Source: Planctomycetaceae bacterium (GTDB taxonomy: Bacteria; Planctomycetota; Planctomycetia; Pirellulales; Pirellulaceae). Taken from it: 64,000 nt of DNA. Numbering within the stretch: the first letter of the stretch is position 1; each line of letters begins with the position of its first letter. The notes beneath the pieces are model-generated. The model ran no database searches and was not told where the DNA came from. It was given only the letters and a program-made list of their open reading frames with translations. Of this stretch, positions 1-17,014 are shown one piece after another. The stretch is taken from contig JAIYDN010000012.1 of the NCBI GenBank assembly GCA_027487485.1, positions 62,001 to 126,000 on the forward strand, read 5' to 3'. Made by a program: the position numbers and the translations under genes.

Positions 1-1
1 C

Positions 2-2093: not shown

Positions 2094-2116
2094 CCCACAG
2101 CCTGGAATGGGTGTGT

Positions 2117-2199
2117 AACCACGGAACAAACCGAACACACGGAAAAAGAGCCTGATTGCCGTGTGTCTTCCTTCCGTGTATTCAGTGTGTTCCGTGGTT
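2117..2199. repeat. Inverted-repeat element, CCACGGAACA type
   Basis: Two 28 bp arms (2117-2144 and 2172-2199) are complementary at 25 of 28 positions around a 27 bp loop. The arm carries the words CCACGGAACA and ACACGGAA. It would form a long RNA or DNA hairpin. An element of the same architecture but different sequence lies at 42597-42676. No gene lies inside. Confidence 0.8.
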
Positions 2200-2324
2200 C
2201 CCTAATCGGTTCTTGCACCGGCCGAAATGCATGTGTGAAGTGCCGGTGCGCTTGGCTTGAGTTGCAATGCCGTCCAATCTCAGTTCACGCGTGATGGCAC
2301 TCGATGGTCGACTCAATTTCTACC

Positions 2325-2452
2325 GTAGGCTGTAACAAGCGATAGCGCAGTTACGGAAGCCCCGTTCGAATCCCAATGCCCCCATCGAACAAGTCGAACC
2401 TTCCTAGCACGCCAAGCCGTAACTGCGTCCAAAGCGACTTGTTACGGCCTAC
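2325..2452. repeat. Inverted-repeat element, GTAGGCTGTAACAAG type
   Basis: The left arm 2325-2356 starts GTAGGCTGTAACAAG and ends GCAGTTACGG; the right arm 2417-2452 is its inverse with two mismatched interior bases and a 4-5 nt asymmetric bulge. Sequences of this kind recur between genes in planctomycete genomes; the assignment to that group is from memory. The remaining part of the 2094-2814 gap is AT-rich towards 2800 and shows no gene I can support. Confidence 0.75.
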
Positions 2453-2814
2453 AGCAGAACACCCAACGAAAACGAAAGATGTGCTGAGCTCGCGGCATCC
2501 GATAGCCCCCACAAAGTGATGAGAACGCTTATAGTTCCAACACTGAAATCGAAGGGCAGGAGATACTATGGAAAGGACATGCGTTTTTTATGAAATCCAG
2601 TAAGACTTTTCTCGTTATTCCTGTGGTTACTACTAGGTTAACCAATTTTTCATTTTTTGCTGTCTCGCTCCCATTGCTTGATAATATAAACCGCTTTACA
2701 ACAATGAAATGGCTGTCATTGTGATTGGAAACACACAATCATCCTGCCAAGTGAATTTTCTCGTGGTGAGACACTCGCTTACCTAATTTACACAAGGATT
2801 TCTGGGGACACAAA

Positions 2815-3264
2815 ATGGCAATTACTTTGAAAGTTAATCCGTATACGGACAATAATGGGGACAGGCAACATCGAGGCAAAGTATATCTGTCGGAGATGCA
2901 ATTCGGTCAGAATGAAAATTATCCAACAAGAATTAGAGAGCCTCGTGATCCTGAGGTACAAAAACCCGGATTCATAAACCTGCTTGAAGTCACTGCGACA
3001 GCGCCCGATTCCCTTAAAAACGATCCATTTTCGTTATGCCTAATTGGGCACAAAGTTTTCATCCTTCGACGCCGATACACCAATACTGATCGAACGCTAA
3101 GAATTTGGTTCATTGCTAAAAAAATAAATCGGACGCTAGATAGTGTTGAAACAGAAGATAAAGAAACTTTAACTACTGGGAGACTAATACTAACTATCGA
3201 AACAGAAGAAGAAACCGAGGACTCGACCGAATTAGCTGTCGAGTTAGCAAACACAGCTCCATAA
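2815..3264 (+). CDS. Hypothetical protein, unrecognised
   Basis: A 149-residue product that I do not recognise. The ATG at 2815 follows GGGGACACAAA, a possible ribosome binding site. The middle of the protein is strand-like (HKVFILRRRY, TLRIWFIAKKI), which fits a small beta-rich domain; the last 40 residues are very rich in Glu and Thr. No signal peptide or membrane segment is seen. The gene and the 300 bp before it are clearly richer in A and T than neighbours, which suggests transfer. It converges on the kinase gene that ends at 3291 with a 26 bp gap. An antisense open frame covers much of it, so the call rests on the start context and composition. Confidence 0.5.
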   Translation: MAITLKVNPYTDNNGDRQHRGKVYLSEMQFGQNENYPTRIREPRDPEVQKPGFINLLEVTATAPDSLKNDPFSLCLIGHKVFILRRRYTNTDRTLRIWFIAKKINRTLDSVETEDKETLTTGRLILTIETEEETEDSTELAVELANTAP

Positions 3265-3290
3265 ACGTAATCTGTCGATGCAAGCAAGCG

Positions 3291-6041
3291 TCACCTAGCC
3301 ATCAATGCTTGAGCATGCTTGATGGCTGGATGAGTCGGATTGGTGGATTGGAGACTTCTTAAATCGGACTCCAGTAGCAATTTCGTTTCAGCGAGCCGTT
3401 CTGAATGCTGCTCGCTATCAAGTGCTGCGTAAAGTGCGGCTCGAATGAGCACTTGGGATGCTATGGTACTTGCGTTCAATGGTTGGTCGACAAACACCGT
3501 TTCGAGAGCGGCCTGAGATCTCTCTGCTGCCACAAGAGCAGCTGTTTTGTCGCTTCGATCGATAGCGATGAAGCTAATTGCCCGGTAACCGTCCGCCAAA
3601 AGGAGGCGATAGTTGACATTGGATTGCGAAATCGCGCGCATCTCTTCGGTCGTTTTGAGTGCATTCTCTGCATGCATAGAGGCGGCATCGAACTGTTTGC
3701 GCAGTCGTTCCACATTCGCAACCGCTAGACAAGCTTCGACAAAAACCGTCTTCATGTCGATAATGTCTGGGAAATCAGCAATGCGTTTCGTCGTCATGTC
3801 GATTGCTTCATTTCCGACATTGGCCGCTTCGTCGAGTTGCCCGAGATTGGCAAATGCGAGAGATTGCGCAGTCAAGCTGCTTAGGTAATAAATTGGCTGT
3901 ACATAAGGCCTAGACTTCGATGGCGGGATCTTCTCAAGAATGGCCGTCGCTGTTTTTGCGTCCGTCAAAGCGGACTCAGCATCGCCAATTTCCCGGCAGA
4001 TTTCGCTGTGTTGCAAAAGAGTCAATGCCAGCGAAAGCTTGGCACTCGATCGATTGTCCAATTGGGATCGCCGCAAGGAAATTTGCTTTGATTTTTCAGA
4101 AAAAGGTAACGCTTTGACAGCGCCTAGCCTGGAGAGTTTGTTCTGCGTTAGACTGCGAGAGCTATCGGCGATAAGGTACAACAATTCTATATCCCCATCT
4201 GTGGTCGCTATCGCCTGCTCTGCCAATTGAACTGCCGCTTCGGAGCATCTATCTGCTTCTTCGTCATTTCCGCGATGCCGATAGATGTCCGCACTCCGGT
4301 TATAAAGTTGACAAACATTCTTTAGGAGACCTGGATTGTTTGGCGATGTTTTCAGCAGATCTTGGAATCTCTTGAGGGCTAGCTCGTACATCGCCAGCCG
4401 TTCATCATCAAAATTTGGCAAATTAGCCCACTTATCGCCGACGATCGTTTTGACGAACTGTTCAAGAATTGCCGAGGACGTTTCGCTGTTCCGGTGCGCA
4501 CGCTCGGATTCCAATTCAGCTTGTACACGCATCTCTTGGGCATTATTGCGCTCTTCGATGGCAATTTTTGATGCGTCGTTAGCGCGATCGCGTTCTTGCA
4601 TTGCAATGTTTCGCTGTCTGCCTACTGCCCAATTTGCTAACAACAAGCCAACGGACGCAACGCACAGAAAGACGAACGCGCTGGCTACTAAGGTTTGGTG
4701 TTTTCGAGCGAAACGAAGGGTTCGTTGAACAAGCTGTTCAGGGTACGCTTTGACAGGAGCTCCTGCACTCCAATTATCTAGATCTTCTGCTAGTTCGACG
4801 GCGTTACCGTATCGCTGGGCAGGTTCCTTGGACAGTGCTTTCAAGCAAATGGCCTCAAGTGGTTTTGAAATACGAGGATTCAGTTCACGGGGCGGCGAAA
4901 ACCTACAAAGCCTAGCGGCGACTAATGTTTCATCGCGATTGTCTTCTCGGTAGAGTGGTCTTCCAGTGATTACGGCATAGAGGGTTGCCCCTAGGCTAAA
5001 TACATCTGATCGCCGATCGACAAGGTCGATTCGCCCGTTGGCTTGTTCCGGGCTCATGTAGGCATACGTGCCCAGGATTGATCCCATTTCCGTTGGACTG
5101 CTGTCGCTGAGCCTAGCGTCATCCATAGGCGCTTCGCTTACTAAATAGGCGGCGTCGTCGATGCCTTTGACTTTTGCTAACCCCCAGTCGACTACCAAAG
5201 TCTCGCCGTACTTGCCCATCATGATGTTCTGTGGCTTGATATCACGATGAATCACCCCGCGACTGTTGGCATAACCAATGGCATAGCAGGCATCAATCAC
5301 TGCGCGAACAAGTTTTCGCAGTGTTCGATCGTTAGCCGCTTCGTCATTGGATTTGCCTTCGATCTGGTGCAGCGCGTGAATTGCCTCGTGCAAGCTCTGA
5401 CCACGAATCAGTCGCATCGCATAAAAGGGAGCGCCATTTGGAAGTGACCCAAGTCCATAAACGGGCACAATACCAGGATGCTCCAGACCTCCGGTAATCT
5501 TTGCTTCGGCAAGGAATCGATCATGGATGTCTTGCGAGTGGCGGCGGTTGTTCAGAATTTTTTTGAGCGCCACGTCGCGATCAAGTTCCAGGTCCCTAGC
5601 AACGTAAACTTCCCCCAAGCCCCCGCGCGCTAGTTCGCGAAGCAAGCTGAACCGCCTTCCGACAATCGACTCTCCACCCGCAGTGGCGAATGAACCTGTT
5701 AATTCGTCCCCTTCTTGATGCTCAACAATGGCCGCACTATATCTGGTTCGAAACTCGCTGGTTTGGTCAGTCAAACCGCTTATCTCAACCGAAGAGGCCT
5801 GCAAAGATTCAAGGCTCTTTTGCGGTGAACCTGATCGGGAGACGTGTTTCTCGACGATCGTGTCAATAAATTTTCGATCTTCTTCCGAAAGATAGCCCTT
5901 CGCAACCAGGACACTGCCAAGTGGGGTTTTCTTGCTTAGCATCCATTGATTGGCACCTTCCATAAACTGCCATCCTCGAACGTAATCGAGTTGAACAGCC
6001 AGGATACCAAAAAGCAAATTGCGATCCCCAGCTTCATCCAC
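3291..6041 (-). CDS. Membrane Ser/Thr protein kinase with TPR-like C-terminal region
   Basis: A 916-residue Hanks-type kinase. I chose the GTG at 6041 because GAGGA lies 8 nt upstream and the product then begins just before DRNLLFGILA, the conserved opening of this planctomycete kinase group; an upstream GTG at 6074 would add 11 residues. Counting from 6074: N-terminal helical module with PLGSVLVAKGYL at 20-95, kinase domain 142-440 with G-loop ARGGLGEV, catalytic Lys171, HRD at 276-278, DWG (for DFG) at 296-298 and YMSPEQ. One membrane helix spans about 461-485. The 430 residues behind it are helical with TPR-like pairs, placed outside the cytoplasm if the kinase is inside. It probably phosphorylates cytoplasmic targets in response to an external or protein-protein signal; substrates cannot be inferred. 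The residues needed for activity are present. Confidence 0.9.
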   Translation of the reverse strand: MDEAGDRNLLFGILAVQLDYVRGWQFMEGANQWMLSKKTPLGSVLVAKGYLSEEDRKFIDTIVEKHVSRSGSPQKSLESLQASSVEISGLTDQTSEFRTRYSAAIVEHQEGDELTGSFATAGGESIVGRRFSLLRELARGGLGEVYVARDLELDRDVALKKILNNRRHSQDIHDRFLAEAKITGGLEHPGIVPVYGLGSLPNGAPFYAMRLIRGQSLHEAIHALHQIEGKSNDEAANDRTLRKLVRAVIDACYAIGYANSRGVIHRDIKPQNIMMGKYGETLVVDWGLAKVKGIDDAAYLVSEAPMDDARLSDSSPTEMGSILGTYAYMSPEQANGRIDLVDRRSDVFSLGATLYAVITGRPLYREDNRDETLVAARLCRFSPPRELNPRISKPLEAICLKALSKEPAQRYGNAVELAEDLDNWSAGAPVKAYPEQLVQRTLRFARKHQTLVASAFVFLCVASVGLLLANWAVGRQRNIAMQERDRANDASKIAIEERNNAQEMRVQAELESERAHRNSETSSAILEQFVKTIVGDKWANLPNFDDERLAMYELALKRFQDLLKTSPNNPGLLKNVCQLYNRSADIYRHRGNDEEADRCSEAAVQLAEQAIATTDGDIELLYLIADSSRSLTQNKLSRLGAVKALPFSEKSKQISLRRSQLDNRSSAKLSLALTLLQHSEICREIGDAESALTDAKTATAILEKIPPSKSRPYVQPIYYLSSLTAQSLAFANLGQLDEAANVGNEAIDMTTKRIADFPDIIDMKTVFVEACLAVANVERLRKQFDAASMHAENALKTTEEMRAISQSNVNYRLLLADGYRAISFIAIDRSDKTAALVAAERSQAALETVFVDQPLNASTIASQVLIRAALYAALDSEQHSERLAETKLLLESDLRSLQSTNPTHPAIKHAQALMAR

Positions 6042-6280
6042 TTTGCAAGTCCTCGCTGGGCAAAAGTAGCACACACGTAGTCAAAGAACGAATTGTACTA
6101 AAATCCGTCAGCATTCGAGCAAGATCAAGCGGAAGATTCTCTAGAACCATTCTGAACGAAAGAGTTGGGATCATCACCAGCCCGCCACAGCGGTGCGAAA
6201 TCACAAATACTTACTTCGAGTGTTGTGACCAGAAACAGTCCCGAGATTGACGATTCCCAAAGAATCGATTGGGAAAAAGA

Positions 6281-6324
6281 AGTAGCGATGATTGGACTCG
6301 AACCAACGACCCACGGCTTATGAA
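6281..6324. repeat. Left attachment site of the island (tRNA-Met 3' fragment)
   Basis: This 44 bp stretch is identical to 16736-16779 and represents the anticodon loop, variable loop, T arm and acceptor 3' strand of tRNA-Met on the minus strand. It lacks the D arm and the 5' acceptor strand, so it is a remnant, not a tRNA gene. Identity stops exactly after TATGAA, where the right copy continues with the rest of the tRNA. Confidence 0.9.
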
Positions 6325-6438
6325 ACGACCCGAAAAACGTAGTGAAAACGCTGCTTTTCATTGATGTTTTAAGGTTTTTGCCTCGAAAACACGTTTGCAA
6401 ATCATAGCGAAACATAGCGAAAAAGGCAAGGCTTTTGA

Positions 6439-6473
6439 GTAACTACCGCTTTGACACGGTAACTACCGCTTTG
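6439..6473 (+). repeat. Paired 15 bp direct repeats, candidate integrase arm-type sites
   Basis: GTAACTACCGCTTTG occurs at 6439-6453 and 6459-6473, a 20 bp period (two helical turns), 115 bp inside the left attachment site. A related word (GGTAGACTACCGCTTA) lies at 16646-16661, between the integrase gene and the right attachment site. Repeats of this sort near both ends are typical of arm-type binding sites for tyrosine integrases. From 6480 to 6875 I see no gene. Confidence 0.45.
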
Positions 6474-6875
6474 CGAATGAACAAAACGGTGCGCTGGGGA
6501 ACAAGGAGGGGGGTCAGTTATCGTTGGGCTGTGATACTACACCAGTATTGCTACCCAAGCTGAGCAACCCTTTCAAATTTTTCAAAAATAAAAACGGGCA
6601 AAAGGTCGTTTCACGACCACATATTCAGCAAGTTTGGGGCAGCAGTCGTTCTGCGGCGCCCTTCGCCATGCGATGACTAAACTTGGAGGCCTCTATCGGG
6701 TAAAACCATGTAATCGTCTGGAAGCTTGACCGACTAGACGTTGCCACCTTGCTTGATCACCTCGAAATGGCATTGAATCTGGGTGACAAGGCATAGTAGC
6801 AGTGGGTTCAAAATTCTAGTATGATTATTACTCGCTCTTTTAGGCAAGAATCACCCCCACGAAACCAATCCAACT

Positions 6876-7703
6876 ATGGCCAAAATTCCGGTAAAGATCG
6901 TTGATCGAATAACAGCGGGCGTCAAACGTTTTCAGCCCATCCTAACTGCTGCCAAGTCCAGGGACTTGGGCGAATCGGACACTGTGACCATCATTGTGGA
7001 TATCCTTGCTGAGGTCTTTGGCTACGACAAATATTCCGAAATCACTTCGGAATACGCAATCCGTGGGACCTATTGCGATCTTGCGATAAAGCTTGATGGC
7101 GCGCTTGAAATGCTGATTGAAGTCAAGGCAATCGGCATCGATTTGAAGGAACCCCATGTCAAGCAGGCTATTGACTATGCTGCCAACCAAGGGGTTGAAT
7201 GGGTAGTGCTCACCAACGGATTGAATTGGAGAGTCTATAAGGTCATTTTCGGTAAACCGATCGGTCAAGAACTTGTGCTTGACCTTAATTTCTGTTCATT
7301 AAGCGGTAAGGCGGCCAAGGACATAGAGACCCTCTTTCTGTTTTGCAAAGAAGGTTGGATGAAGTCCGTACTAGGCGAATACCACACTCAGAAGCAGGCC
7401 CTTAGCCGTTTCTTCTTGGGTGCCATGATTCTATCCGAACCTGTGTTGAACATCATTCGGAGGGAACTCAAGCGACTCTCCCCTGATGTTCGGGTTGAAA
7501 TCGACGAAATCAAATCAGTCTTGATGGCCGAAGTTTTGAAACGGGAAGTTCTTGAGGGTGACAGCGCTGCCGATGCGAAGAAGAAGCTTGCACGGTCCGC
7601 AGCCAAGCAGTTGAAGGAAAAAGCAACCAAGGCCACAACAGCCGACGTTCAGGAGACACCTGTGGAAGAAACATCGGTAGAGGAACACAGTACTGAGGAA
7701 TGA
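6876..7703 (+). CDS. Solitary type I restriction HsdR N-terminal domain nuclease
   Basis: A 275-residue protein carrying only the N-terminal nuclease domain of type I restriction R subunits (HSDR_N type). The PD-(D/E)xK core is visible: Asp68 in CDLAI, Glu82 and Lys84 in IEVKA, followed by the conserved QAIDYAANQGVEWVVLTNG block, which in this family precedes NWRVYKV. There is no helicase or translocase domain and no modification or specificity gene nearby, so classical type I restriction is excluded. The C-terminus is a charged low-complexity tail rich in Lys, Ala, Thr and Glu. Stand-alone proteins of this type occur in defence islands and as integron cassettes; here it is the first cassette-like gene, ending 150 bp before the first attC-like site. 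An antiphage role is inferred only. Confidence 0.8.
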   Translation: MAKIPVKIVDRITAGVKRFQPILTAAKSRDLGESDTVTIIVDILAEVFGYDKYSEITSEYAIRGTYCDLAIKLDGALEMLIEVKAIGIDLKEPHVKQAIDYAANQGVEWVVLTNGLNWRVYKVIFGKPIGQELVLDLNFCSLSGKAAKDIETLFLFCKEGWMKSVLGEYHTQKQALSRFFLGAMILSEPVLNIIRRELKRLSPDVRVEIDEIKSVLMAEVLKREVLEGDSAADAKKKLARSAAKQLKEKATKATTADVQETPVEETSVEEHSTEE

Positions 7704-7852
7704 GTTACCGCAAGGTTTTTCTAAGCAAGTCGTGTTGCTGGTTGAGGTGGCCGTATCACCATCCAAGGTTTTGGGGAAGCAAATGATCTTTGCTGATCGT
7801 CGGCATCGGTGGACGGCCATTGCGTTCCCGTTTGATGGTAGCCCTTTCGTTC

Positions 7853-7936
7853 AACAATCCCATGCACCTAAGCCCCCGCCGGTGCTTTACTAACTTTAGA
7901 AACATCACTTGCGGGGGCTAGGTGATGGGTACCGTT
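7853..7936 (+). other. Integron attC-like recombination site 1
   Basis: Left arm 7853-7879 and right arm 7911-7936 fold on each other: AAC pairs with GTT at the ends, then an unpaired spacer (AAT against GGTA), CCCAT, an extrahelical G, CACCTA, an extrahelical A, and the 8 bp stem GCCCCCGC. The loop 7880-7910 is a variable terminal structure. This is the complete layout of an attC site: R boxes, unpaired central spacer, L boxes and bulged bases all on one arm. Confidence 0.85.
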
Positions 7937-7956
7937 ATTGCATTGAAGGGCCCCTT

Positions 7957-8796
7957 ATGCAACTGGCACTTGTAAACGATGAACGAGTTGAAGCGTTTTC
8001 AGGTGGACTCGGTTTCTGTCCCGTTTGTGGATCCGATATGATCGCAAAATGCGGACCACGAGTCCTGCATCACTGGGCGCACCATCGCCCAAAAGACTGC
8101 GACCCTTGGTGGGAAAATGAAACGCAGTGGCATCGCGATTGGAAGAATCTCTTTCCACTTGCCTGTCGCGAGGCATCTCATACTGCGCCAGATGGTGAGA
8201 TACATCGAGCGGACATTAAGACGCCGACCGGAATCGTGATTGAGGTCCAGCACTCTTCAATGACAGACGCTGAACGCCAGTCACGCGAGCAATTTTATCG
8301 CAATCTCGTTTGGGTAATTGATGGTCGTGGTTTTCGGAACAACTTCGATATCTATCATGGACTACCGAGTCCCAAATCAGACATTGCGCAAGACCTCGTA
8401 TGGTCAAAGGCAAAACGCCACATGAACGGCTCGAATGCCGGAATGTTCTTCCGACTTTCTGAGGCGAGAATGGAAAATCCGAGCATAACCAAAGCAGAAG
8501 TGCGATCTGGCTGGATCCATGACATTCATGAGATTCAATCTGAAGTTGATATATGGTACAACGGATACCATCAATTCGATTGGGTCCGTCCGAGAAAGAC
8601 TTGGCTAGATGCAGCGTGCCCGGTATACATCGACTTCGGCGATGATAAACTCGTCAAACTGGATATCTACGACGAGTCCGGTTTGAAATGCATAAGATAT
8701 GTTTCAAAACGCAAATTCGTCCACGATGCTATGGTTGAATCCTATGCGGTCGACATCGCTACTCGCTTTTACCCTTTACCTGAAAACGTGCAATAA
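7957..8796 (+). CDS. CoiA-like competence/nuclease family protein
   Basis: A 279-residue product. I chose the ATG at 7957 because it lies 21 nt after the GTT of attC-like site 1, the usual position for a cassette gene, and the product MQLALVNDERVEAF starts like other CoiA-type proteins. The visible order is a short zinc-ribbon-like N-terminus (CPVC at 21-24), a histidine-rich block (HHWAHH), ETQWHRDWK, and the nuclease-type core with Asp86 in HRADI and Glu96-x-Gln98 in IEVQHSS. CoiA-like proteins belong to the PD-(D/E)xK nuclease group and are linked to natural competence in Firmicutes; lone copies like this are frequent in mobile DNA. A DNA-cleaving, possibly defensive function is inferred. 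The stop lies inside the next attC-like site. Confidence 0.75.
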   Translation: MQLALVNDERVEAFSGGLGFCPVCGSDMIAKCGPRVLHHWAHHRPKDCDPWWENETQWHRDWKNLFPLACREASHTAPDGEIHRADIKTPTGIVIEVQHSSMTDAERQSREQFYRNLVWVIDGRGFRNNFDIYHGLPSPKSDIAQDLVWSKAKRHMNGSNAGMFFRLSEARMENPSITKAEVRSGWIHDIHEIQSEVDIWYNGYHQFDWVRPRKTWLDAACPVYIDFGDDKLVKLDIYDESGLKCIRYVSKRKFVHDAMVESYAVDIATRFYPLPENVQ

Positions 8797-8878
8797 CCAA
8801 GCGATGCACCCAAGTCGCCGGTCGGCCGCGAATTTGAATCATAGTTTTTTGGCGGCGACATGGGTGATCGAGGTCGTT
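8795..8878 (+). other. Integron attC-like recombination site 2
   Basis: Left arm from AAC at 8795-8797 through GTCGCCG; right arm 8851-8878 ends in GTT. Paired blocks are AAC/GTT, CGAT, an extrahelical G, CACCCA, an A-A mismatch and GTCGCCG. The loop contains a T run. The stop codon of the CoiA-like gene overlaps the left edge by 2 nt. Confidence 0.8.
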
Positions 8879-8889
8879 CGTCTGATTGG

Positions 8890-9135
8890 CTACTCTATTC
8901 TCGGGGTCGGCGAATCTCTGCCAGGAACCTTAATCACCAACGGGCTCGGTTTAATTCCTGTTACGACGGAAATGACTCGCCATGAGAGTACTGCTAGCCC
9001 GCCGATCACAACTGGATTAACACTTACGCCCGCAGCGATGCCTATCGTTGCCAGAAGTAACGACACGAGCGGAATTGCGCAACAAGCCATACGAAACCAT
9101 GTTGGTAAACTTTTCGGAAACGATCTAATCGTCAT
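8890..9135 (-). CDS. Small two-helix membrane protein
   Basis: An 81-residue protein with two hydrophobic segments, one around ACCAIPLVSLLLATIGIAAG and one around VIGGLAVLSWRVISVV, and a basic start. I do not recognise the family. I prefer the ATG at 9135, which overlaps the stop of the preceding gene by 11 nt and so suggests translational coupling; an ATG at 9153 is an alternative. It lies on the strand opposite to the other cassette genes, and its stop is 12 nt from the end of attC-like site 2, so the pair fills one cassette in reverse orientation. A small membrane protein coupled to a soluble partner fits toxin-antitoxin or abortive-infection units, but nothing proves that. Confidence 0.6.
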   Translation of the reverse strand: MTIRSFPKSLPTWFRMACCAIPLVSLLLATIGIAAGVSVNPVVIGGLAVLSWRVISVVTGIKPSPLVIKVPGRDSPTPRIE

Positions 9136-9532
9136 GTTGATCGGCTCCTTCAATTTCCAGGAACGGAATCTTCTTTAACGACTCCAGGCCAGCGTCAACT
9201 GCCTCAAGTTTCCCCGTGATTGACTCGACTAGCACCTCAAGTAACTTTGGTAACAATTTCGCTGCTTCAGCTTTAATTTCAACCGAAGCATTCGTTACAA
9301 AACCGCCCTCTTGATCGTCGCCACACCACAGTTTCCAACCGAAAGAACTGTGTTTCATGAATTCGAGCTTATAACAACCCTCACCGACACTGACCTCAAT
9401 TTTCCCAGGAATTTGCTGCAAAAACGACTCTGCTGCTTCCAGAGATTGAGAAAGAAGTGTCGCCTTTGAGGCATACTTGCTTGATCTATCACGCAGAGTA
9501 CGCACGAACTCATCGAACCCTTGGTTTCCCAT
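9125..9532 (-). CDS. Soluble cassette protein coupled to the two-helix membrane protein
   Basis: A 135-residue, mainly helical protein with no membrane segment. It has a central aromatic block (SSFGWKLWCGDDQEGGF) and a long helix pair in the second half (AEAAKLLPKLLEVLVESITG). I do not recognise the family. The stop codon overlaps the start of the downstream membrane protein gene, so both are made from one transcript. The 157 bp between the start at 9532 and attC-like site 3 must hold the promoter, since the pair faces against the array. A cassette with its own promoter in reverse orientation is typical of toxin-antitoxin cassettes in sedentary integrons; this remains inference. Confidence 0.6.
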   Translation of the reverse strand: MGNQGFDEFVRTLRDRSSKYASKATLLSQSLEAAESFLQQIPGKIEVSVGEGCYKLEFMKHSSFGWKLWCGDDQEGGFVTNASVEIKAEAAKLLPKLLEVLVESITGKLEAVDAGLESLKKIPFLEIEGADQHDD

Positions 9533-9689
9533 AGGAACTTTTCCTTTGCCTTACGGCACGCTATAACAGCTTATGTAGATGCTGCAATCGACTACTCGAT
9601 CGTAGCGCAGACCTCACGGAATGCACCTGCATTATCGCGATTTTGTAATTTCTGTCAACTCTTCAGTTCGGAAGACACAAAACCGGAAG

Positions 9690-9771
9690 AACAAAATGTT
9701 GGACCGAAGCCCCCGTCGGTCCTTTTCGAAATGGAAGCCGTGTTGGCAGGGGCTCGGTCTACATGGGCGTT
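9690..9771 (+). other. Integron attC-like recombination site 3
   Basis: Left arm 9690-9713, right arm 9749-9771. AAC/GTT ends, an unpaired spacer, ATGT, an extrahelical G next to a mismatch, GACCGA, an extrahelical A and GCCCC. Same layout as sites 1, 2 and 4 with different stem sequence, as expected for attC sites, which are conserved in structure more than in sequence. Confidence 0.8.
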
Positions 9772-9851
9772 ATTTGGTTGAGGATTTTGCGCGAACTCAA
9801 ACAGTAAAAGCGTGTCAAAGTTTGAGATAACGGAAAAACTCGGAGTATCAC

Positions 9852-10721
9852 ATGAAACTATCGCAACGCTCAATCAAAGCACTCGGCAGAATCGTAACCG
9901 GAGATGAAGGGTTGTCTCTCTACCGGAGTGGACCCAAACTTGTCGAGCTCTTCAACGAATTTGGTGCAAATGGCACATATGGCCAAGGATTTCCATCTCG
10001 TTGGATGTACGCCGAGGAATCTATTCGCGCGATAAACGACACGCCCGCAATTGCCGCATTGATCTGCCACGTTTGCGATCCTAGAGAGTTTATGGACTCA
10101 CAGAAGGATCCGTTGCCCGCCCTAGAGTTCCTGAATCAACGTCTCGAGTACGACGGCTTTAGTGTTTCAATCGACAAGGGAAAGGCCAAGATCAGAGACG
10201 TTGACGGAGCTTCCGTAAAATTCAATTCACCATATGGCAACGGTGCCAACGACGCCCATACATTCATTGATGAGCAGATTGAAAAATCCGAAGAGAAGAT
10301 TACTGAGGGCGACTACGATGGGGCAATAACCAATGCAAGGTCATTGCTTGAAGCGATAATGTGTGACATCGAGATTGCCTGCGATCCAAATGCACCGACG
10401 AAATACGATGGCGACATGAATAAGCTGTATAAGCGAGTGCAAAAGATTTTGAAACTTGAGGCAACACGCGCAGACATCGACGGCGCTCTCAAGCAAGTGC
10501 TCTCCGGTTTGTCGTCCGTGATTGCGGGAATCGCGTCTGCGAGAAACAGCATGAGCGACGCGCACGCACGTTCATACAAGCCGTCAAAGCATCACGCCGT
10601 CCTTGTTGTGAACTCGGCGAAGACGTTAGCAAACTTTCTGTACGACACAAAAGAATACCAATCGGCAAAGAAGCCAAATAACAAACCATTGCAGACGAAG
10701 GCCGCGATCAGCGTATTTTGA
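9852..10721 (+). CDS. Abortive infection family protein (Abi_C domain)
   Basis: A 289-residue protein. The C-terminal half (about 140-275) matches the Abi_C pattern: a helix with GDYDGAITNARSLLEAIMCDI, then LNKLY-type KLYKRVQKILKL, then LSGLSSVIAGIASARNSMSDAHA and HHAVLVVNSAKTLANFL. The N-terminal 130 residues look like a separate domain that I cannot name. Abi_C proteins are found in phage-exclusion loci and defence islands; the mechanism is not established for most. The ATG at 9852 lies 80 nt after attC-like site 3. The last 14 codons run into the left arm of attC-like site 4, a known way for cassette genes to end. Confidence 0.75.
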   Translation: MKLSQRSIKALGRIVTGDEGLSLYRSGPKLVELFNEFGANGTYGQGFPSRWMYAEESIRAINDTPAIAALICHVCDPREFMDSQKDPLPALEFLNQRLEYDGFSVSIDKGKAKIRDVDGASVKFNSPYGNGANDAHTFIDEQIEKSEEKITEGDYDGAITNARSLLEAIMCDIEIACDPNAPTKYDGDMNKLYKRVQKILKLEATRADIDGALKQVLSGLSSVIAGIASARNSMSDAHARSYKPSKHHAVLVVNSAKTLANFLYDTKEYQSAKKPNNKPLQTKAAISVF

Positions 10722-10764
10722 CAAATCTTGAGTCATCTGCGCGGCCTCGCTGAATGGTACCGTT
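10680..10764 (+). other. Integron attC-like recombination site 4
   Basis: Left arm 10680-10706 and right arm 10740-10764. AAC/GTT ends, spacer AA against GGT, ACCATT, an extrahelical G, CAG(A)CGA, an extrahelical A and the 7 bp stem GGCCGCG. The left arm is at the same time the coding end of the Abi_C gene. Confidence 0.82.
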
Positions 10765-10777
10765 GCGTCTAGAAGGC

Positions 10778-10945
10778 ATGAATCACTGGGGCATCCCAAA
10801 TGATCTCAAAAAACTGATTCGCGAGCGTTATTTGCTTTTCTTGTGTTATCGTCGGCATCGGCATTCTGCCAGCAGAAGGACTTTCCGCCGTATAAAGGTC
10901 ACCCTGACGCACGTTTTACCCCGGTACCACAATGCAGCGACATAA
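10778..10945 (+). pseudogene. Truncated HNH-nuclease-like cassette start
   Basis: The ATG at 10778 lies 14 nt after the GTT of attC-like site 4, where a cassette gene should begin. The first 17 residues, MNHWGIPNDLKKLIRER, resemble the start of small HNH nucleases found as planctomycete cassettes, in which RD..CVYCG should follow. Here the frame continues into a basic, cysteine-poor sequence instead, so the HNH centre is missing. From about 10804 to 11150 two other frames look coding in turn, first a signal-peptide-like FAFLVLSSASAFC and then KPYGNRIADCVCEY, without a start codon. I read this as the debris of one or two cassettes. Confidence 0.35.
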
Positions 10946-11032
10946 ACCATGACTTAAGCCGTATGGCAACCGTATCGCCGATTGCGTCTGCGAATATACC
11001 ATCCGCCCTGTGTCGTATGCCGAGTTTCTGAA

Positions 11033-11058
11033 GGAGAACAAGCCTAAGCTTGTTCTCC
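11033..11058. terminator. Perfect 11 bp hairpin
   Basis: GGAGAACAAGC, CTAA, GCTTGTTCTCC form a perfect stem-loop with no T run behind it. It may end transcription of the cassette array, or be part of decayed coding sequence. Confidence 0.35.
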
Positions 11059-11149
11059 CGCCTGTGACGCAAAAACCGATTCTGCGAAAAAGGCTAAGTG
11101 CTGAAACCTGCTTCCCACTGTGGTGGTTTTCGGAATCATAAAGCAGAAA

Positions 11150-11347
11150 TGGTGGTGGGTGTGAGGGATGGGCTGTTGGCTTGGTGGTGGTGTGTCTATG
11201 TGGTCTAGGTCTCCTCGGTTGGTGGGTGGTGTGGGTGTTTGGTGGTGGATGTTGGTGTGGTGGGGCTGGCTAGCCGCCTTCCCGGATTTTCTGAATTTAA
11301 CAACCGCCCGAAGAAGGGTTTTTTGGGGGTTTTAGAGGGGTTTTGGG
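11150..11347 (+). other. G/T-skewed stretch with a G-quadruplex-type motif
   Basis: 11150-11270 is a run of TGG, GTG and GGT words with few C residues on the plus strand. Separately, 11316-11347 has four G tracts (3, 5, 4 and 3 G) with loops of 6, 7 and 4 nt, which meets the usual quadruplex rule. The next gene starts 107 bp downstream. The rest of 10946-11453 holds no gene I can support. Confidence 0.5.
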
Positions 11348-11453
11348 ACTGTTTGAAAAGTTGACTATTGAAAACGGTTGCGATACCATGGGCTCCCGAA
11401 TCCTGGTCCTTAGAAAAAAAACAAAACTGTTCCGGTATCGGCCAAGATGAGCC

Positions 11454-13136
11454 ATGAGAGAGACACCCAAGCAACACCTGTGGTACTACGCTCGCCAAAG
11501 CCTGTTGCGCGGCGGAGAAAAAGGTCCGTTTACAGAACAACAGATGCTCGAATTGGCAAAGCTTGGCGAAATCAAGCTTGATACCTTGCTTCGAAGTCCA
11601 ACGAAGACCGATAACCACGAGATTTTAGCCGAATCCATTCCAAAACTTGCAATCGCGATAAACCAAGCAGAAATTGATTCGAAAGCAAAAAAACTTGCGG
11701 ATAAAGACCAAAGAAAAAAAGAACAGAACGCTATCGCCTACAAAAAGCGTGAAGCCAAGGCAGGCAAGCAGGAGCTTGTACCACTAAAGGAAAACGAGAT
11801 CGAAGGTTATTTGGAAATACCCATTCTTCGGACGCAAACTCCCACTTCGCAACATCCAGTTTTTCCCATGGCGTCGCAGGCAAGGTTCTCGATTGATCAG
11901 CCGCAAAAGACTGGAACTCAAGGGGTTTTTCATGCATTCGGTATCACATCTGGCGCAATAGCATCAATCGCAGCTGTGGTTTTGGGCATACCCCTCCTAG
12001 CCTGTGGCGGCTGCCTGGGACTTGCTTTTCTTGCCTCGCCTTCGGCACAGTTTCGAAATCGCATGCCGAATGACCAAGCTGCAAAAAATGTAGAAGTGAA
12101 TGCTGTAAACACCATATATCCACAGAAAAATATTGATTCTAGGCGAAAGTGGATTAGCGAATCGTATGGCACCATCATCGCCTACAAAAATGAAAGTACT
12201 TGGACGGATACGGATAGGACGACGGGAAAACTGGTATCGGAACATGAGTTTAGAGGAAAAACCGACGACTATATCGAACTGTTCAATCTAAATCCTGCTG
12301 CTAGAGACCTTTTAAGACTCTACAAGGATCGTATGGAGTGTAAGCATCCTACGGGATGGGTTGTAATAGGCAGTGGCCACTGGGATTTTGCCGACGGAAA
12401 CATCAGTGTTGCAAACCAAAACGTGAACGAACAAAAAAACGAGACCGCAACCAAAGCGAATCCATCGGAGGGCAAGGTTTCTGTGTTGAGCACATCAATC
12501 GTTTCGACCGGAGTGGGCGAATTCCAGGCTATTGAAGTGTTCCTGAGAAACGATGGTCCTCGTCCAATTCGCATTGCTGATGGTGTTTATCATTTATTCG
12601 ATCAAAATGGGAAGTCAATTGAAGACATCAAGTATGGAATTCTATTTATCGAAGACGATCAAAAGCCGGTCATGCCCGGTGAGACGACAAAAGCAGGAGG
12701 ATTTCGAATACCGAAATCTATGCGCGTGGCATCCGCTAAAGTTACCCTTACAAAAACATTGGAAAAAAGCAGCGATTCCGAAGAAGTTCCAAACACAATT
12801 TTGCAACAGCACGATCCACTAAACAACTCAGGGAAAATAGTTGACTCATTGCGTTTTATCGCGAAGAAAATAGACACTAAGAACAATAGCGATGAGATAT
12901 TTTTGTATTACACTGAAGGACCCATCGACGAAAACAAATTCAAGGCACGATGTCAGCAATTGAAAGCAATCACCAAGGCTGAGTTATTCTCTGCAATTGT
13001 AGTTTTCGACAGGAAGGAGAATGCCAGATTTCCAGGGAATCCAATTTCCGCTCACTATGGAATGGACTTCGAAATAGGGGATCACATTGAGATCTTGTAT
13101 CTCTACAATAAGCGGAATGGGTATGAAAGCCGCTAA
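11454..13136 (+). CDS. GYF-like domain membrane protein, function unknown
   Basis: A 560-residue protein. The N-terminus (about 9-65) has WYYARQ ... KGPFTEQQMLELAKLGEIKLDTLL, the pattern of the bacterial GYF_2 domain that binds short peptides. A Lys/Glu-rich linker follows, then one membrane helix around GAIASIAAVVLGIPLLACGG (about 170-195). Behind the helix lie an Ala/Trp-containing segment (HPTGWVVIGSGHWDF) and a beta-sandwich-like region (GEFQAIEVFLRNDGPRPIRI ... PGETTKAGGF) similar in style to extracytoplasmic DUF4352/CARDB modules, then a final 100-residue domain. Such GYF-plus-helix proteins are common in planctomycetes. The gene is richer in A and T than the chromosome around the island. 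It could be island cargo for surface or stress functions; no enzyme motif is seen. Confidence 0.65.
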   Translation: MRETPKQHLWYYARQSLLRGGEKGPFTEQQMLELAKLGEIKLDTLLRSPTKTDNHEILAESIPKLAIAINQAEIDSKAKKLADKDQRKKEQNAIAYKKREAKAGKQELVPLKENEIEGYLEIPILRTQTPTSQHPVFPMASQARFSIDQPQKTGTQGVFHAFGITSGAIASIAAVVLGIPLLACGGCLGLAFLASPSAQFRNRMPNDQAAKNVEVNAVNTIYPQKNIDSRRKWISESYGTIIAYKNESTWTDTDRTTGKLVSEHEFRGKTDDYIELFNLNPAARDLLRLYKDRMECKHPTGWVVIGSGHWDFADGNISVANQNVNEQKNETATKANPSEGKVSVLSTSIVSTGVGEFQAIEVFLRNDGPRPIRIADGVYHLFDQNGKSIEDIKYGILFIEDDQKPVMPGETTKAGGFRIPKSMRVASAKVTLTKTLEKSSDSEEVPNTILQQHDPLNNSGKIVDSLRFIAKKIDTKNNSDEIFLYYTEGPIDENKFKARCQQLKAITKAELFSAIVVFDRKENARFPGNPISAHYGMDFEIGDHIEILYLYNKRNGYESR

Positions 13137-13177
13137 TTTGAGCCTCGACCGAGATGTAATGTGGAACAAGTGACGAA

Positions 13178-14440
13178 TTAGAACGGGTCAACGCTTACTC
13201 GCATTTGATATCCTATTTCGTCGAATCCGCGATCGAATTCCCCCTCTATCAATTCGGCTTGCCCTTCACCGCAAATAATGCAGTCGTGAAGCGTTAGGAC
13301 CAGGGGATTAGATGGGAGCAGCAAAGCGCCAGCCGCAACGTTGTGGATTACGAAATTGGCCTCTTCTCCTTGAAGCTGTCGAATAAGCGTCCTATGGTCC
13401 CTTTCGTTAACCTGACTTACGAACCGGTCAACTGTTGGATAACGGCAAGCGAATATCTGTCGGAACTCCGACGAATAATTTCCTTTTTTTGCTAAAACGT
13501 GAATCATAAATTGATTTTTGACGTCGTTTCGTTCCATCGTTCTTTTCGTCCTGGAGTATTTTTCAGTGGAAGCCGTTAGCCCTTTTGCGATGCATTCTGC
13601 GAGCAAAGATTCATAGAAACGACCTTCTCGTACTTCCAGTATGAACTGGTCAAGATCGTTGAGTATTTCCTGGTGATGCGATTGGTATCTTAATGCTTGT
13701 AGTCCGAGAAGTGCCGGCTGGCTGTTTTTCACATCTACCGAGACAAGTCGCTTACCGTTGAACGATAGCGCTGGCCTAACAAGGGAATGTAGTCCTGAAA
13801 TACTGTTGTATAGTCTGCCCCATTGCGTCGGAAAAACTCGAAACCTTTTTTGATAGAGGTCATTGACGATAGCGGATTGTCGATCGAAAGGGTTTGAGTC
13901 TACCGGCAGATCTTTGATCAGTTTCTTGGCGAGGACTATGTCGATCTCGATTCGATGGAACTGCGCTTCTAATTTCTGACATAGATCTTGCGTCCTAGGG
14001 TCAATGTGGTCGTAAAGTTTGCCATCCTTTCGCCGAGATTCCTCCCTTTCTAAAGCTCCAATTAGGCGTGAGTTCGAGGGTTTGACCCGAACGCACTTGT
14101 CACCCCTGAACCTTTCATTTAGGCGATATCCCCTTGAACGTTTGCCAGCGGTATATTGCTTGTCGCAATCGATCACCGACGCAGATATCAGCGCTTCTTT
14201 AATTTTCGTAGAATCATCCTTGGCCATGACCTTATTTAGTGTTGCCGCGTGTAGCATCACGTAACCGTCCTCTCCATGCCCGGCGCCCATTGCCTGTCGT
14301 CGGAATATCGTGCTAACGAGATAGTTTGCGTCATCAGTCCGTCTTGCAAGCGGTCCTTTTAGGTAGTCGCTTGCATTGAATGTCTCGGGCAAAACGAAGG
14401 AATAGTTGGACAGAGATGAGATTGTCTTTTTCTTGTACAT
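13178..14440 (-). CDS. Winged-helix plus family-A-polymerase-like protein of mobile elements
   Basis: A 420-residue product from ATG 14440; an upstream ATG at 14482 adds 14 residues. Counting from 14482: residues 70-125 (GYVMLHAATLNKVMAKDD ... GKRSRGYRL) look like a winged-helix initiator domain. The C-terminal half carries the motif set of family A polymerases: RLVSVDVKNSQPALLGL with Asp250 (motif A), VKNQFMIHVLAKKGNYSSEF and IFACRYPTVDRFV at 321-355 (O-helix-like motif B), FVIHNVAAGALL, and LTLHDCI with His399-Asp400 (motif C). This matches the compact polymerases of mobile elements described as TV-Pol and related proteins. I infer that it replicates the island after excision, perhaps with primase activity. 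Neighbours are a DUF1580 protein and the integrase on the same strand. Family A assignment comes from motif reading only. Confidence 0.6.
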   Translation of the reverse strand: MYKKKTISSLSNYSFVLPETFNASDYLKGPLARRTDDANYLVSTIFRRQAMGAGHGEDGYVMLHAATLNKVMAKDDSTKIKEALISASVIDCDKQYTAGKRSRGYRLNERFRGDKCVRVKPSNSRLIGALEREESRRKDGKLYDHIDPRTQDLCQKLEAQFHRIEIDIVLAKKLIKDLPVDSNPFDRQSAIVNDLYQKRFRVFPTQWGRLYNSISGLHSLVRPALSFNGKRLVSVDVKNSQPALLGLQALRYQSHHQEILNDLDQFILEVREGRFYESLLAECIAKGLTASTEKYSRTKRTMERNDVKNQFMIHVLAKKGNYSSEFRQIFACRYPTVDRFVSQVNERDHRTLIRQLQGEEANFVIHNVAAGALLLPSNPLVLTLHDCIICGEGQAELIEGEFDRGFDEIGYQMRVSVDPF

Positions 14441-14590
14441 GGACTGTTTTCTTGTGAGAAATCTACGTAGGCCCCTTATCAATCGATAGGGGAAAACCTA
14501 ATGGAACTTAAAGATCATGGAATGAGATCGCGAAAAGATATTGCGATCACGTTTATCGCTAGTTGGATTCCATTCCAACTCCCGGAATTG

Positions 14591-14917
14591 TTAGTTGCCA
14601 ACGATCTTTCGAAGGTCTGCGACTGCTTTTTCAATAGCGCGGGTTCGATCCTTCGAAACTGCTAAATCAAAATGATGCGAAGTAGTTTTCGCAGCATTCA
14701 CTTGGATAAACGCTTGAACGTCTTCGATCGTTGTCATTTTCCTGCCACCGATAACCACGTGCCCCAAGGTGCGTCCTCGCACCCCAACCGCACACCAACG
14801 AAGGAGCGTCGAGAGATGGGGACTAGTTCCGGTGACTCGCCGAACCGCTAATGAGAGAGGGAGATATTCCTTTGCACTCGTAGTGCTCTGCTCGCTGTAC
14901 TTGTTTCTTGCTGCCAT
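14591..14917 (-). CDS. DUF1580 / excisionase-like DNA-binding protein
   Basis: A 108-residue protein with a helix-turn-helix-like core: LPLSLAVRRVTG, then SPHLSTLLRWCAVGVRGRTLGHVVIGGRKMTTIEDVQAFIQ. The order of a first helix, LHRWC-type recognition helix, a GVRG-type wing and a second GG-R strand is that of the planctomycete DUF1580 family, which resembles MerR/excisionase-type winged helices and usually accompanies tyrosine integrases. It lies between the polymerase-like gene and the integrase on the same strand and is the best candidate for the island's excisionase or regulator. Confidence 0.7.
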   Translation of the reverse strand: MAARNKYSEQSTTSAKEYLPLSLAVRRVTGTSPHLSTLLRWCAVGVRGRTLGHVVIGGRKMTTIEDVQAFIQVNAAKTTSHHFDLAVSKDRTRAIEKAVADLRKIVGN

Positions 14918-15409
14918 TTTAACAATAGACCTTGTTCGAAATTAACGTTTCGCATCGATAAGTTCGATGAGACTCATTGTTGGTCCCCCCAATAAAGGAA
15001 TACGGAATTCTCGCTTGTAGTTGCAATTACCTACTTGAGGCAATTGCAGAGGTCTAGGCTGCACTTGCCTTTTCGGTTAATGGGCTTCGTTACGCTCGAG
15101 GCCATCGGAATAACTATACACCTGTGCTCATCTATCTAAGGCATTTTTATTTTTGAGTTTTCGCAAATAGTTGCGATACCAAACTGAAGGCAGGTGCAGC
15201 AGCCATTTTTGCAATTGCCTCACAAACTAATCTCTATTCCGCATTGCGGGTGTCGAAAGCCGCAAGACTCAAAAGCACGTACTCTCTCGTTCGTGCGCGG
15301 AAGATCTGGTCCAATCTTGTAACTTCGCTTTCTGCCGACTTCAAAGCAACTTCTACGATGAGAATCGAATCAAGTTGCTGAATGGCGGTTTGAAGTGATT
15401 CGACATTCC
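14918..15409. other. Noncoding stretch with a 13 bp inverted repeat, origin- or operator-like
   Basis: No gene with a valid start is seen in these 490 bp. TGAGGCAATTGCA at 15036-15048 is repeated in exact inverse at 15210-15222, and related words (TTGCAATTA at 15021, TAGTTGCGATA near 15170) occur between. The stretch is AT-rich around 15130-15170. On the minus strand 15240-15405 keeps one open frame of more than 50 codons ending in LLSLAAFDTRNAE, but it has no start codon. Confidence 0.4.
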
Positions 15410-16617
15410 TTAGCCAACTCTGCCGACAACGGCAATCGCGTTGTTTCGATCTTGTTCAGCGTAGGTTTGCGTGATTGCCAAGCTACTATGGCCTAAAATC
15501 ACGCTTGCCGCTTCCAATCCATGTGTTTTGCGGATCTCAGTTGCCCGTGCATGTCGAAGTTGATTTGGTGACCAACTGTGATTGATTCGCCACATTCGAA
15601 GTGCTTCCCCCTTCAAGCCCTCCGGGGCTGGAAAAGCAAGTCGGCAACCATATTTGATAGAACGACCGTAGGAAGCCGTTGAATAGCAATTTCCCGGCTT
15701 TCTGGATGGCTTGGAAACGCGATTCGTTCCAGGACTATTGCCACAGCTTTTGGGAGTCACTCGCGATTCCTCCCTCGATTTCAATTTCTGCCGGACGGCT
15801 TCTCTGGGATTGAAGCAATACGCATCTTCCCTCCGGTTCAAGTAGGGCCGCAAAACGGCCTGGGCTTGTGGTCCAACATAGATGGTTCGGGACTTCCCTC
15901 GCCAAGCGGTTTTGTGGTTTTCCAGCCTGATTTCCCAAACTGGGTTCTTGCGATCAACCATATTAGGTTTCAATTTGCAAACCTCCCCTGGGCGGCACCC
16001 TGTTAAACGCTGAAATCGCACCATGGAAGCGACGACATTGGATAGGCTGGGAAGGTAGCCTCTACGGTCTCGTCGTCAACGGGGGCAACTGGAGGGGCTT
16101 CGCGTGCCTTGCAATGGCCCTTAGTCAAGGGAGTTACGCACTTGATAGCCTGATGGATCGATGGGGGAAGGACTCCCTCGGATACCAGCCACTTTATGGC
16201 TCTTGTGATGCGACGCATTTGGTGGTTAGCGTACTGCCTTGAAACGTCACGAGAAAGCCACCATTGACGTATCTGCTTAAACTCAAGGGGAGAGAATTCG
16301 CAAGCCGGCTTTCGGGGAATTAGTTCGCTAATTGGCCTAAGGGCCATTGCGATGTTTTGAAACTCCTGGGACTCAGGGCCATAGTAGGCCTTGGCGTGAT
16401 TTGCATAGGACCTAGCAACTTCGGCCATTGAAAGCTTTGCGACTTCCTCCCCAAAAGTTGTTGGGTCAGGCGCAAGAAGATACTTCGCGAGTAAATCCTT
16501 GAACTTCCGCTTACTTGCTGCGGTACCATGCCGGCCAAAATAGTAGGTCTTGCCTCGAATTGTCGTGCAAGCTTGACCGGTAGCCTTATGAAGTCGATAA
16601 GTGGGTGACTTTGCCAT
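15410..16617 (-). pseudogene. Tyrosine recombinase/integrase, split by a frameshift
   Basis: Two overlapping frames together give one phage-type integrase of planctomycete kind. 16617-16003 encodes the arm/core-binding N-terminal part (MAKSPTYRLHKATGQ ... PVDDETVEATFP); 16024-15410 begins MVRFQRLTGCRPGEVC and has the whole catalytic domain: Arg in TGCRPGE, Lys in HKTAWRGK, HxxR in LRHARATE, His in LGHSS and the Tyr nucleophile in TQTYAEQ. In related enzymes the two parts are continuous. Reading SNVVAS in the second frame just before MVRF restores the expected sequence, so one base is missing near 16053-16058. No classical slippery heptamer is seen, so a mutation or a sequence error is likelier than programmed frameshifting. 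A separate catalytic-domain protein could still be made from the ATG at 16024. Confidence 0.85.
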
Positions 16618-16735
16618 AGAAGAACTGCCTTTCCAAAAATAAACGGTAGACTACCGCTTAATACTTGATGAAAAACAGCGCTCTGACCGCTTGGTCAGGT
16701 AACGTTTTGGCAACGAATCGCTTGATAAACTATAG

Positions 16736-16779
16736 AGTAGCGATGATTGGACTCGAACCAACGACCCACGGCTTATGAA
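16736..16779. repeat. Right attachment site of the island
   Basis: Identical over 44 bp to 6281-6324. It is the 3' half of the intact tRNA-Met gene plus 2 bp behind it. The integrase start lies 119 bp away, with a candidate arm-type word at 16646-16661 between. Confidence 0.9.
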
Positions 16780-16811
16780 GCCGTTGCTCTAACCGACTGA
16801 GCTACATCGCC
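16738..16811 (-). tRNA. tRNA-Met (CAT), elongator type
   Basis: On the minus strand GGCGATG pairs with CATCGCT (one G-U at the end), followed by A; the D arm has AGCTCAGTCGGTTAGAGC, the anticodon arm ACGGC TTCATAA GCCGT, and the T arm GTTGGTTCGAGTCCAAT. The anticodon is CAT. The 1-72 pair is G-U and there is no initiator-type three G-C anticodon stem, so it is an elongator; a tRNA-Ile2 with modified CAT cannot be excluded. CCA is not encoded. The 3' half doubles as the island attachment site. Confidence 0.93.
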
Positions 16812-16821
16812 TTGTTTTTAG

Positions 16822-16894
<73 letters not shown>

Positions 16895-17014
16895 GTTTTT
16901 TACCTGGCAATCCCCCCTAAGACAGGGAAAATCTCGACCAAGTTCGCAAAAGAGTATCCTGGCCCCGCCACCTAGTCAAGTTCATCGTTCCTTCTTCCCA
17001 AAACCTTTGGAATA

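Follow-up and report, generated by a model that had tools for sequence, protein, structure and literature searches.

A probable integrase-free attC array carried by a tRNA-Met island in a Planctomycetaceae genome

Integron attC sites are recombined by the integrase IntI, which uses their bottom strand in folded form. Clusters of attC sites lacking integron integrases are called CALINs, a term that reportedly comes from Cury et al. 2016, and Loot et al. 2024 are said to have described the insertion of cassettes at non-attI sites (attG). Here we describe four attC sites, and the gene cassettes that they delimit, in a window of 64,000 nucleotides that forms part of one contig (JAIYDN010000012.1, C73 below) in the 7.49 Mb, 114-contig assembly of a Planctomycetaceae bacterium (GCA_027487485.1). 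These genuine attC sites very probably constitute a CALIN of ~4 kb, with four cassettes, which forms part of the cargo of a small tRNA-Met island encoding its own tyrosine integrase. Insertion at attG is the route proposed below, in which IntI acting in trans would join attC to a short off-target site, although the junction here is not base-exact.

CALINs are already known, and the array adds a clean example in which one mobile system is carried by another. Extracts of earlier papers describe CALINs as mobilisable in trans and give off-target insertion by a distant IntI as one proposed origin (PMC8618304, PMC9668308, PMC11389934), and one survey, according to its extract, counted 2961 CALINs (PMC9024848). 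The locus resembles these in its four attC sites of the same orientation, the cassette genes between them and the lack of an IntI on the contig while IntI genes occur elsewhere in the genome. It differs in that the array is cargo of a tRNA-integrating island, which encodes a tyrosine integrase and has sister islands without attC matches. The extract of a Xanthomonas study reports off-site CALINs at a distance from the main integron of genomes that retain intI, in one case on a conjugative plasmid (PMC12444791); those CALINs adjoin chromosomal genes or lie on a plasmid, in another phylum, whereas the array here is carried by an integrase island and its genome has at least 174 attC sites. For the Planctomycetes, extracts report attC models (PMC8352920) and IntI (PMC2426708), so that intI and attC of chromosomal integrons occur in the same phylum, but the array described here has no IntI beside it and is carried by an island. 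A literature search judged by titles and abstract openings, which is no proof of absence, found no published account of this array.

attC sites and cassettes of the window

The four sites are given with their scores under our own attC covariance model (R1) and their identity to the nearest attC sites elsewhere in the genome (host sites).

7853-7936, + strand: attC site 1; 48.6 bits, E 4e-13; 92% identity with host site L096:484
8795-8878, + strand: attC site 2; 39.8 bits, E 2.8e-10; 94% identity with host sites
9690-9771, + strand: attC site 3; 44.3 bits, E 9.5e-12; 91% identity with host site L091:2333
10680-10764, + strand: attC site 4; 31.5 bits, E 1.4e-7; top host identity 79%

A preliminary description of this DNA had placed the sites at these coordinates, from AAC to GTT, and all prove exact. 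The fold that it gave, with terminal AAC/GTT, an unpaired spacer and two paired blocks, is seen in each of the four as a long, imperfect hairpin, and the R''/L''/L'/R' palindrome layout of attC is present. Its claim that extrahelical bases occur on the left arm only holds in the alignments, except that the second extra base of site 2 is an A/T mismatch and not a bulge; the arms of site 3 also contain mismatches in the alignment. All four sites score significantly (E 4e-13 to 1.4e-7), and up to E = 10 they are the only matches to R1 in the 64 kb of the window. All lie on the + strand, with start-to-start distances of 895-990 bp. In a scan of positions 1-17000 for AAC..GTT hairpins, sites 1-4 score 25.4, 19.9, 18.2 and 22.7.

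The window sites were excluded from the training of R1, which used nine long-loop attC sites near IntI genes of other genomes. Their sources were 16 stretches, none longer than 20 kb, that surround genes matching the IntI profile TIGR02249 above its curated cut-off. The hairpin scan, with an extra-base rule, gave 30 matches in these stretches (L045-L060) versus 6 in one shuffled copy and served as a guide only; removal of three matches as implausible and one as a duplicate left 26 sites. The alignment of those 26 misplaced the right arms of the short sites, which led to a set of ten long-loop sites, and with L059 excluded as misaligned nine remained. In the nine-site alignment 95.7% of cells are paired, and both sides vary in 12 of the 18 pairs; four of five measures were equalled by none of 500 shuffles and the fifth by one, a count biased upward by the derivation of the structure from the same sites. 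At E<=1 the model had no match in 119,956 bases from seven other loci of the genome (L039-L044, L109), nor in five loci (66,014 bases), nor in 14 loci (47,470 bases). Rfam returned no attC family, neither at gathering threshold over the window nor at E<=5 over 6200-11500.

A few further structures are recorded here. The sole other + strand score above 17 in the scan of 1-17000 belongs to a long inverted repeat at 2117-2199 with AAC..GTT ends and without the extra bases of attC. In L047, near an IntI, two attC sites (9979-10066 and 10552-10639) lie 573 bp apart with identical flanking ends, the second being the one removed as a duplicate, and in L045, from a genome of the same family, an attC at 6617-6699 lies downstream of the IntI 3' end on the same strand, an inverted layout unlike that of L046, L047 and L057.

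The cassettes and their genes and open reading frames (ORFs) are as follows.

6876-7703, + strand: gene of 275 amino acids (aa) with an HSDR_N_2 domain, probable cassette 1 (Pfam PF13588, 34.5 bits, cut-off 25)
7935-8876, + strand: cassette 2, cut between G and TT of GTT; opens GTTATTG, closes CAATAAC
7957-8796, + strand: CoiA_N-domain gene, 279 aa (Pfam PF25164, 28.7 bits, cut-off 26.3); TAA stop within R'' of attC 2
8877-9769, + strand: cassette 3, a reversed two-gene unit; opens GTTCGTC, closes GAAGAAC
8890-9153, - strand: ORF of 87 aa; no Pfam family, one NCBIfam match far under its cut-off
9125-9532, - strand: ORF of 135 aa; no Pfam family
9631-9658, - strand: promoter-like site for the reversed unit, TTGACA-16-GATAAT, 11/12
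9770-10762, + strand: cassette 4; opens GTTATTT, closes AAATAAC
9852-10721, + strand: Abi_C/AbiJ-like gene, 289 aa (Pfam PF14355, 67.1 bits, cut-off 24; PADLOC AbiJ E 2.7e-28); stop codon inside attC 4
10763-11126, + strand: possible fifth cassette, eroded; a short ORF start (MNHWGIPNDL...) soon after GTT, no attC left

The gene content read earlier from the letters alone (an HsdR-N type gene, a CoiA-like gene, a reversed two-gene unit and Abi_C) is borne out, with HSDR_N_2, CoiA_N and Abi_C above their Pfam cut-offs. Among the five cassette proteins only the AbiJ-like one matched a PADLOC family. The promoter-like site of cassette 3 is one of four in its region against a shuffle mean of 5.5, and hence represents no excess. 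Relatives of the HSDR_N_2 gene, which is probably cassette 1, occur in 24 of 294 genomes of the phylum, the own genome included, the best at 52%. Directly after attC 4 lies a decayed short ORF, MNHWGIPNDLKK..., the start of which presumably resembles HNH-type proteins. The closing end expected of a fifth cassette (ACGCAAC) is present at 11067 with one mismatch, and the stretch may be the eroded remainder of such a cassette.

The ends of the cassettes follow the pattern of the genome at large. Complementarity of R' (GTTxxxx) and R'' (xxxxAAC) amounts to 7/7, 6/7 and 7/7 bases in cassettes 2, 3 and 4; as three of the seven are the fixed AAC/GTT, the four variable bases agree in 4/4, 3/4 and 4/4. 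Across the genome, 163 neighbouring site pairs (183 sites) could be compared, and all four variable bases match in 116 of them and three of four in 24 more, whereas shuffled pairing gave a mean of 13.9 full matches and a maximum of 26 in 1000 shuffles. Three of 186 R1 matches were left out of this count, one partial (L102), one on the opposite strand (L108) and one of 13.6 bits (L096).

These observations leave next to no room for the hairpins being transcription terminators or repeats of the repetitive extragenic palindromic (REP) kind instead of attC. They do lie between genes or at gene ends and fold as strand hairpins, and two terminator-like matches overlap site 3. However, a model trained near IntI genes matches them, extra bases recur on the left arm, all four are on one strand, the ends of neighbouring sites are complementary, and stop codons fall inside or at the edge of two sites; the R1 matches and the R'/R'' end rule together count firmly against terminator- or REP-type hairpins. 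A CALIN is recognised by at least two close attC sites and no integron integrase, and the window has four such sites, C73 having no TIGR02249 match at E<=0.001.

The tRNA-Met island and its sisters without attC matches

The array lies between two borders that define an island of ~10.5 kb.

6281-6324: left border, an att repeat of 44 bp that copies the 3' end of tRNA-Met, 100% identical to 16736-16779
6325-6691: island-end DNA common to cassette-free sister islands (alignments to L127 and L128)
11454-13136, + strand: gene of 560 aa with a GYF_2-like N-terminus (21.5 bits, under the cut-off of 25.8); similar stretches in L127 and L128
13178-14482, - strand: island core gene, 434 aa; no named family found
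14591-14917, - strand: DUF1580 gene, 108 aa (Pfam PF07618)
15410-16617, - strand: island tyrosine integrase, beside the tRNA (Pfam PF00589 on its C-terminal part)
16736-16779: right border, inside tRNA-Met (16737-16811)

The identical 44-bp repeats, 10,455 bp apart, and the integrase beside the tRNA substantiate the tRNA island with a tyrosine integrase that the preliminary description had suggested, and its proposal of a CALIN on such an island is supported by the attC scores, the lack of an IntI on C73 and these borders. The integrase is represented by two overlapping 204-aa ORFs in different frames, while its relative in L127 is a single frame of 402 aa; the split is either a pseudogene or a sequence error, and because the frame is broken the present mobility of the island is doubtful. 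A G-rich, GGT-rich stretch lies at 11140-11270, ahead of the GYF-like gene, and L128 has a G-rich stretch in a similar place.

The 434-aa core gene has matches in seven of 40 relatives, the own genome included, and three of the other six loci were examined. Two of these, L127 and L128, are related islands from the same genus. L127 stands at a tRNA-Gly, with 52-bp repeats at 4786 and 10974, and keeps the gene order, with its GYF-like region divided into two ORFs; L128 stands at a tRNA-Arg, with 21-bp repeats, and keeps the GYF-like and 434-aa genes. The third, L129, is a contig of 4.2 kb. R1 finds no attC match in L127, L128 or L129. The window aligns to L127 at 6273-6519 (L127 11026-10783) and again from 11444, and to L128 at 6464-6691 (L128 471-683, weak and with many gaps) and 11360-11494, with a 23-base match at 11127. 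What the window has in excess of its sisters is thus the cassettes, amounting to 4.4 kb (6692-11126) by L128 and up to 4.9 kb (6520-11443) by L127.

These alignments bear on the idea that the CALIN is the remnant of a complete integron in the island that lost intI and attI, an origin to which we give a low probability. Loss of intI is one proposed origin of CALINs according to the extract of PMC8618304, and the left edge of the array is eroded. But to the left of cassette 1 the stretch not accounted for by the island comes to less than 360 bp by L127, or less than 200 bp by the weaker L128 alignment, the site types match arrays of the present genome, and the profile search detected no IntI on C73. 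A complete integron was not recovered there: intI was not found with the TIGR02249 profile, and attI was not searched for.

Integron integrases elsewhere in the genome and the origin of the array

The absence of an integron integrase that had been claimed for the locus holds for C73 and fails genome-wide, as the genome encodes three IntI proteins. At E<=0.001 the genome has 13 TIGR02249 matches. C73 contains none of them, and the three above the curated cut-off lie on C85, C95 and C110. Two of these proteins are 61-62% identical and the third is 38-39% identical to either. The IntI matches lie 187-416 bases from contig ends, and several small contigs are attC array from end to end. Across the phylum, 50 of the 294 genomes, including this one, have a TIGR02249 match above the curated cut-off.

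The search for related attC sites in the genome, suggested in the preliminary description together with the search for intI, was likewise productive. In 406 kb of own-genome loci R1 has 186 matches at E<=1 and 174 at E<=0.001, the four of the window included; the 174 are a lower bound, as the loci were picked for containing matches or as controls. A genome listing with R1, in which 150 of 921 candidates were scored, gave at least 106 sites at E<=10. Contigs noted for attC sites or IntI are C6, C20, C38, C40, C45, C51, C57, C59, C68, C69, C73, C75, C76, C79, C81 and C95. For 40 sampled host sites, the median of the highest identity to any other host site is 90%. ARAGORN found no tRNA in any of the 18 other own-genome loci L091-L108, so that a tRNA setting is not common to those arrays within the stretches examined.

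One pair of contigs probably bears a trace of IntI action. C95 and C45 (L041 and L094) have their first 119 bases in common and diverge exactly at the R' heptamer GACGAAC, which in C95 lies 69 bases ahead of the IntI match and in C45 is at the edge of an array. The same cassette start would then stand at a putative attI in C95 and behind an attC in C45.

Arrays of this type extend through the genus, in which 26 of 27 genomes, the own genome included, have an R1 match at E<=0.001. In the single-contig genome G298 of the same genus, eight separate stretches picked from 17 listed matches hold 29 R1 matches at E<=0.1, and no relative of the three IntI proteins was found in those eight stretches at E<=1e-4. 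As the sites of a single-contig genome are dispersed too, the dispersal of arrays is not merely a product of assembly fragmentation. One of the G298 loci, L215, has an attC 1.5 kb from a tRNA-Met and was considered as a second tRNA island; it was rejected, as it has only a weak 22-base tRNA-end repeat and no relative of the island genes.

Judged by sequence, the cassettes are of the host's own kind, since three of the window sites are 91-94% identical to host sites and the genome holds three IntI and at least 174 attC sites. It is somewhat probable, and the origin that we favour, that the array was put into the island by IntI acting in trans. An IntI encoded elsewhere would have recombined the cassettes, either one at a time or already joined in a short array, into the island at an off-target site located after the island's left end and before the GYF-like gene. 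The left edge and the fifth cassette would have eroded afterwards, and the frame of the island integrase would have been lost. While mobile, the island would carry the cassettes between cells, and the IntI of a cell could still excise them via the bottom strands of attC.

A genome full of near-identical attC sites also offers material for homologous recombination or rearrangement with a chromosomal array, by which the same CALIN could have been acquired without IntI, and the outer edges of the array are not clean cassette edges. This route is rather unlikely, if less so than the loss of a resident intI and attI. At its right edge the array has a complete attC with terminal GTT, followed by a cassette-like start. 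Four cassette proteins were searched for and each has one match in the genome, so that a donor array containing them was not seen.

Several observations weigh against a host-type array placed in the island by IntI. The insertion point is not base-exact, because its left limit depends on two alignments, of which that to L127 is clear and reaches 6519 and that to L128 is weak and reaches 6691. No left edge could be identified for cassette 1, as the start GTTGAAC predicted from its R'' is absent between 6300 and the gene start. The sister islands occupy other tRNA genes, tRNA-Gly and tRNA-Arg. Site 4 is only 79% identical to the nearest host site. As for the genes, relatives of the HSDR_N_2 protein lack attC in the 14 loci tested, out of 25 other matches listed; the two closest relatives of the AbiJ-like protein (73% and 71%) have no nearby attC; and the 135-aa protein of cassette 3 has no relatives in the other 293 genomes.

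The CoiA-like cassette in other genomes

The CoiA-like gene recurs beside attC sites elsewhere. No relative at E<=1e-10 occurs in any other of the 294 genomes of the phylum. A genome-contig search recovered 33 loci, with identities of up to 82%, and a plasmid search returned 7 records, all matching at the CoiA-like gene. Evidence of attC accompanies the gene at five of the 33 loci, in Symplocastrum, Methylomonas, Halomonas, Salinimonas (where the gene has an internal stop) and a gammaproteobacterial metagenome-assembled genome (MAG). A literature search judged by titles, which is no proof of absence, found no published CoiA cassette.

In Methylomonas an attC lies directly upstream of the gene (R1 E 0.0021, the only R1 match in the 33 loci) and the opening and closing ends match 8/8, while downstream of the gene only the R'' end is seen. 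In the other four an attC-like site lies 3' of the gene, scoring 13.0 in Symplocastrum, 15.2 in Halomonas, 14.2 in Salinimonas and, weakly, 10.8 in the MAG (L163); at random spots a score of 13 was reached in 0.8% and a score of 10 in 4% of 3000 trials. Luteimonas (L169), which has no other signs of attC and was not counted, scores 11.2, and because this exceeds the score of L163 the latter site rests on its position and on being 80% identical to those of L162 and L165, not on its score. The scores in Mesorhizobium, Pseudotabrizicola and Roseibium are 0, 3.2 and 3.8. The opening-end test gave 0.075, 0.067, 0.95 and 0.31 for Symplocastrum, Halomonas, the MAG and Salinimonas, no better than chance allows.

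The junction of gene and site is constant, in that the closing AAC starts 838 nt past the A of ATG in six of six cases (the window and the five foreign genomes), at 3839 in L160, L162, L163 and L165, at 3839 in L161 (R'' only) and at 8795 in the window. The sites themselves diverge. Against the four delimited foreign sites, window site 2 has an identity of 44-56%, versus 94% against own-genome sites, and the three gammaproteobacterial sites are 80-82% identical among themselves, while nucleotide identity of the gene between the window and the five genomes is 66-74%. No sister sites of the same attC type were found in the short flanks of the foreign CoiA loci. In standard IntI recombination the arms travel with the gene, so that replacement of the arms after transfer, or repeated formation of a cassette from the gene at one point, would be required. 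From sequence comparison we tentatively suggest, as a possibility short of an even chance, that a cassette can replace its attC arms while the junction of gene and site stays, and that in the window such a cassette then rode in an island.

The preliminary description had named two outcomes that would count against it, insignificant attC scores and hairpins lying between genes that never part, and neither was observed. The gene of cassette 2 stands beside other attC elsewhere and two sister islands have no attC match, but no independent movement was seen for cassettes 1, 3 and 4. Evidence for independent movement is limited to cassette 2, as the tested relatives of the genes of cassettes 1 and 4 gave no attC match and the 135-aa gene has no relatives in the other 293 genomes.

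The CoiA-like cassette makes the origin of attC, and the swapping of attC by a gene, a testable question. The island with cassettes and its two sisters without attC matches provide a with/without case for cassettes leaving a chromosomal collection to board a mobile-type element. With its AbiJ-like and HsdR_N-like genes as cargo, the array also bears on the possible spread of defence-type genes.

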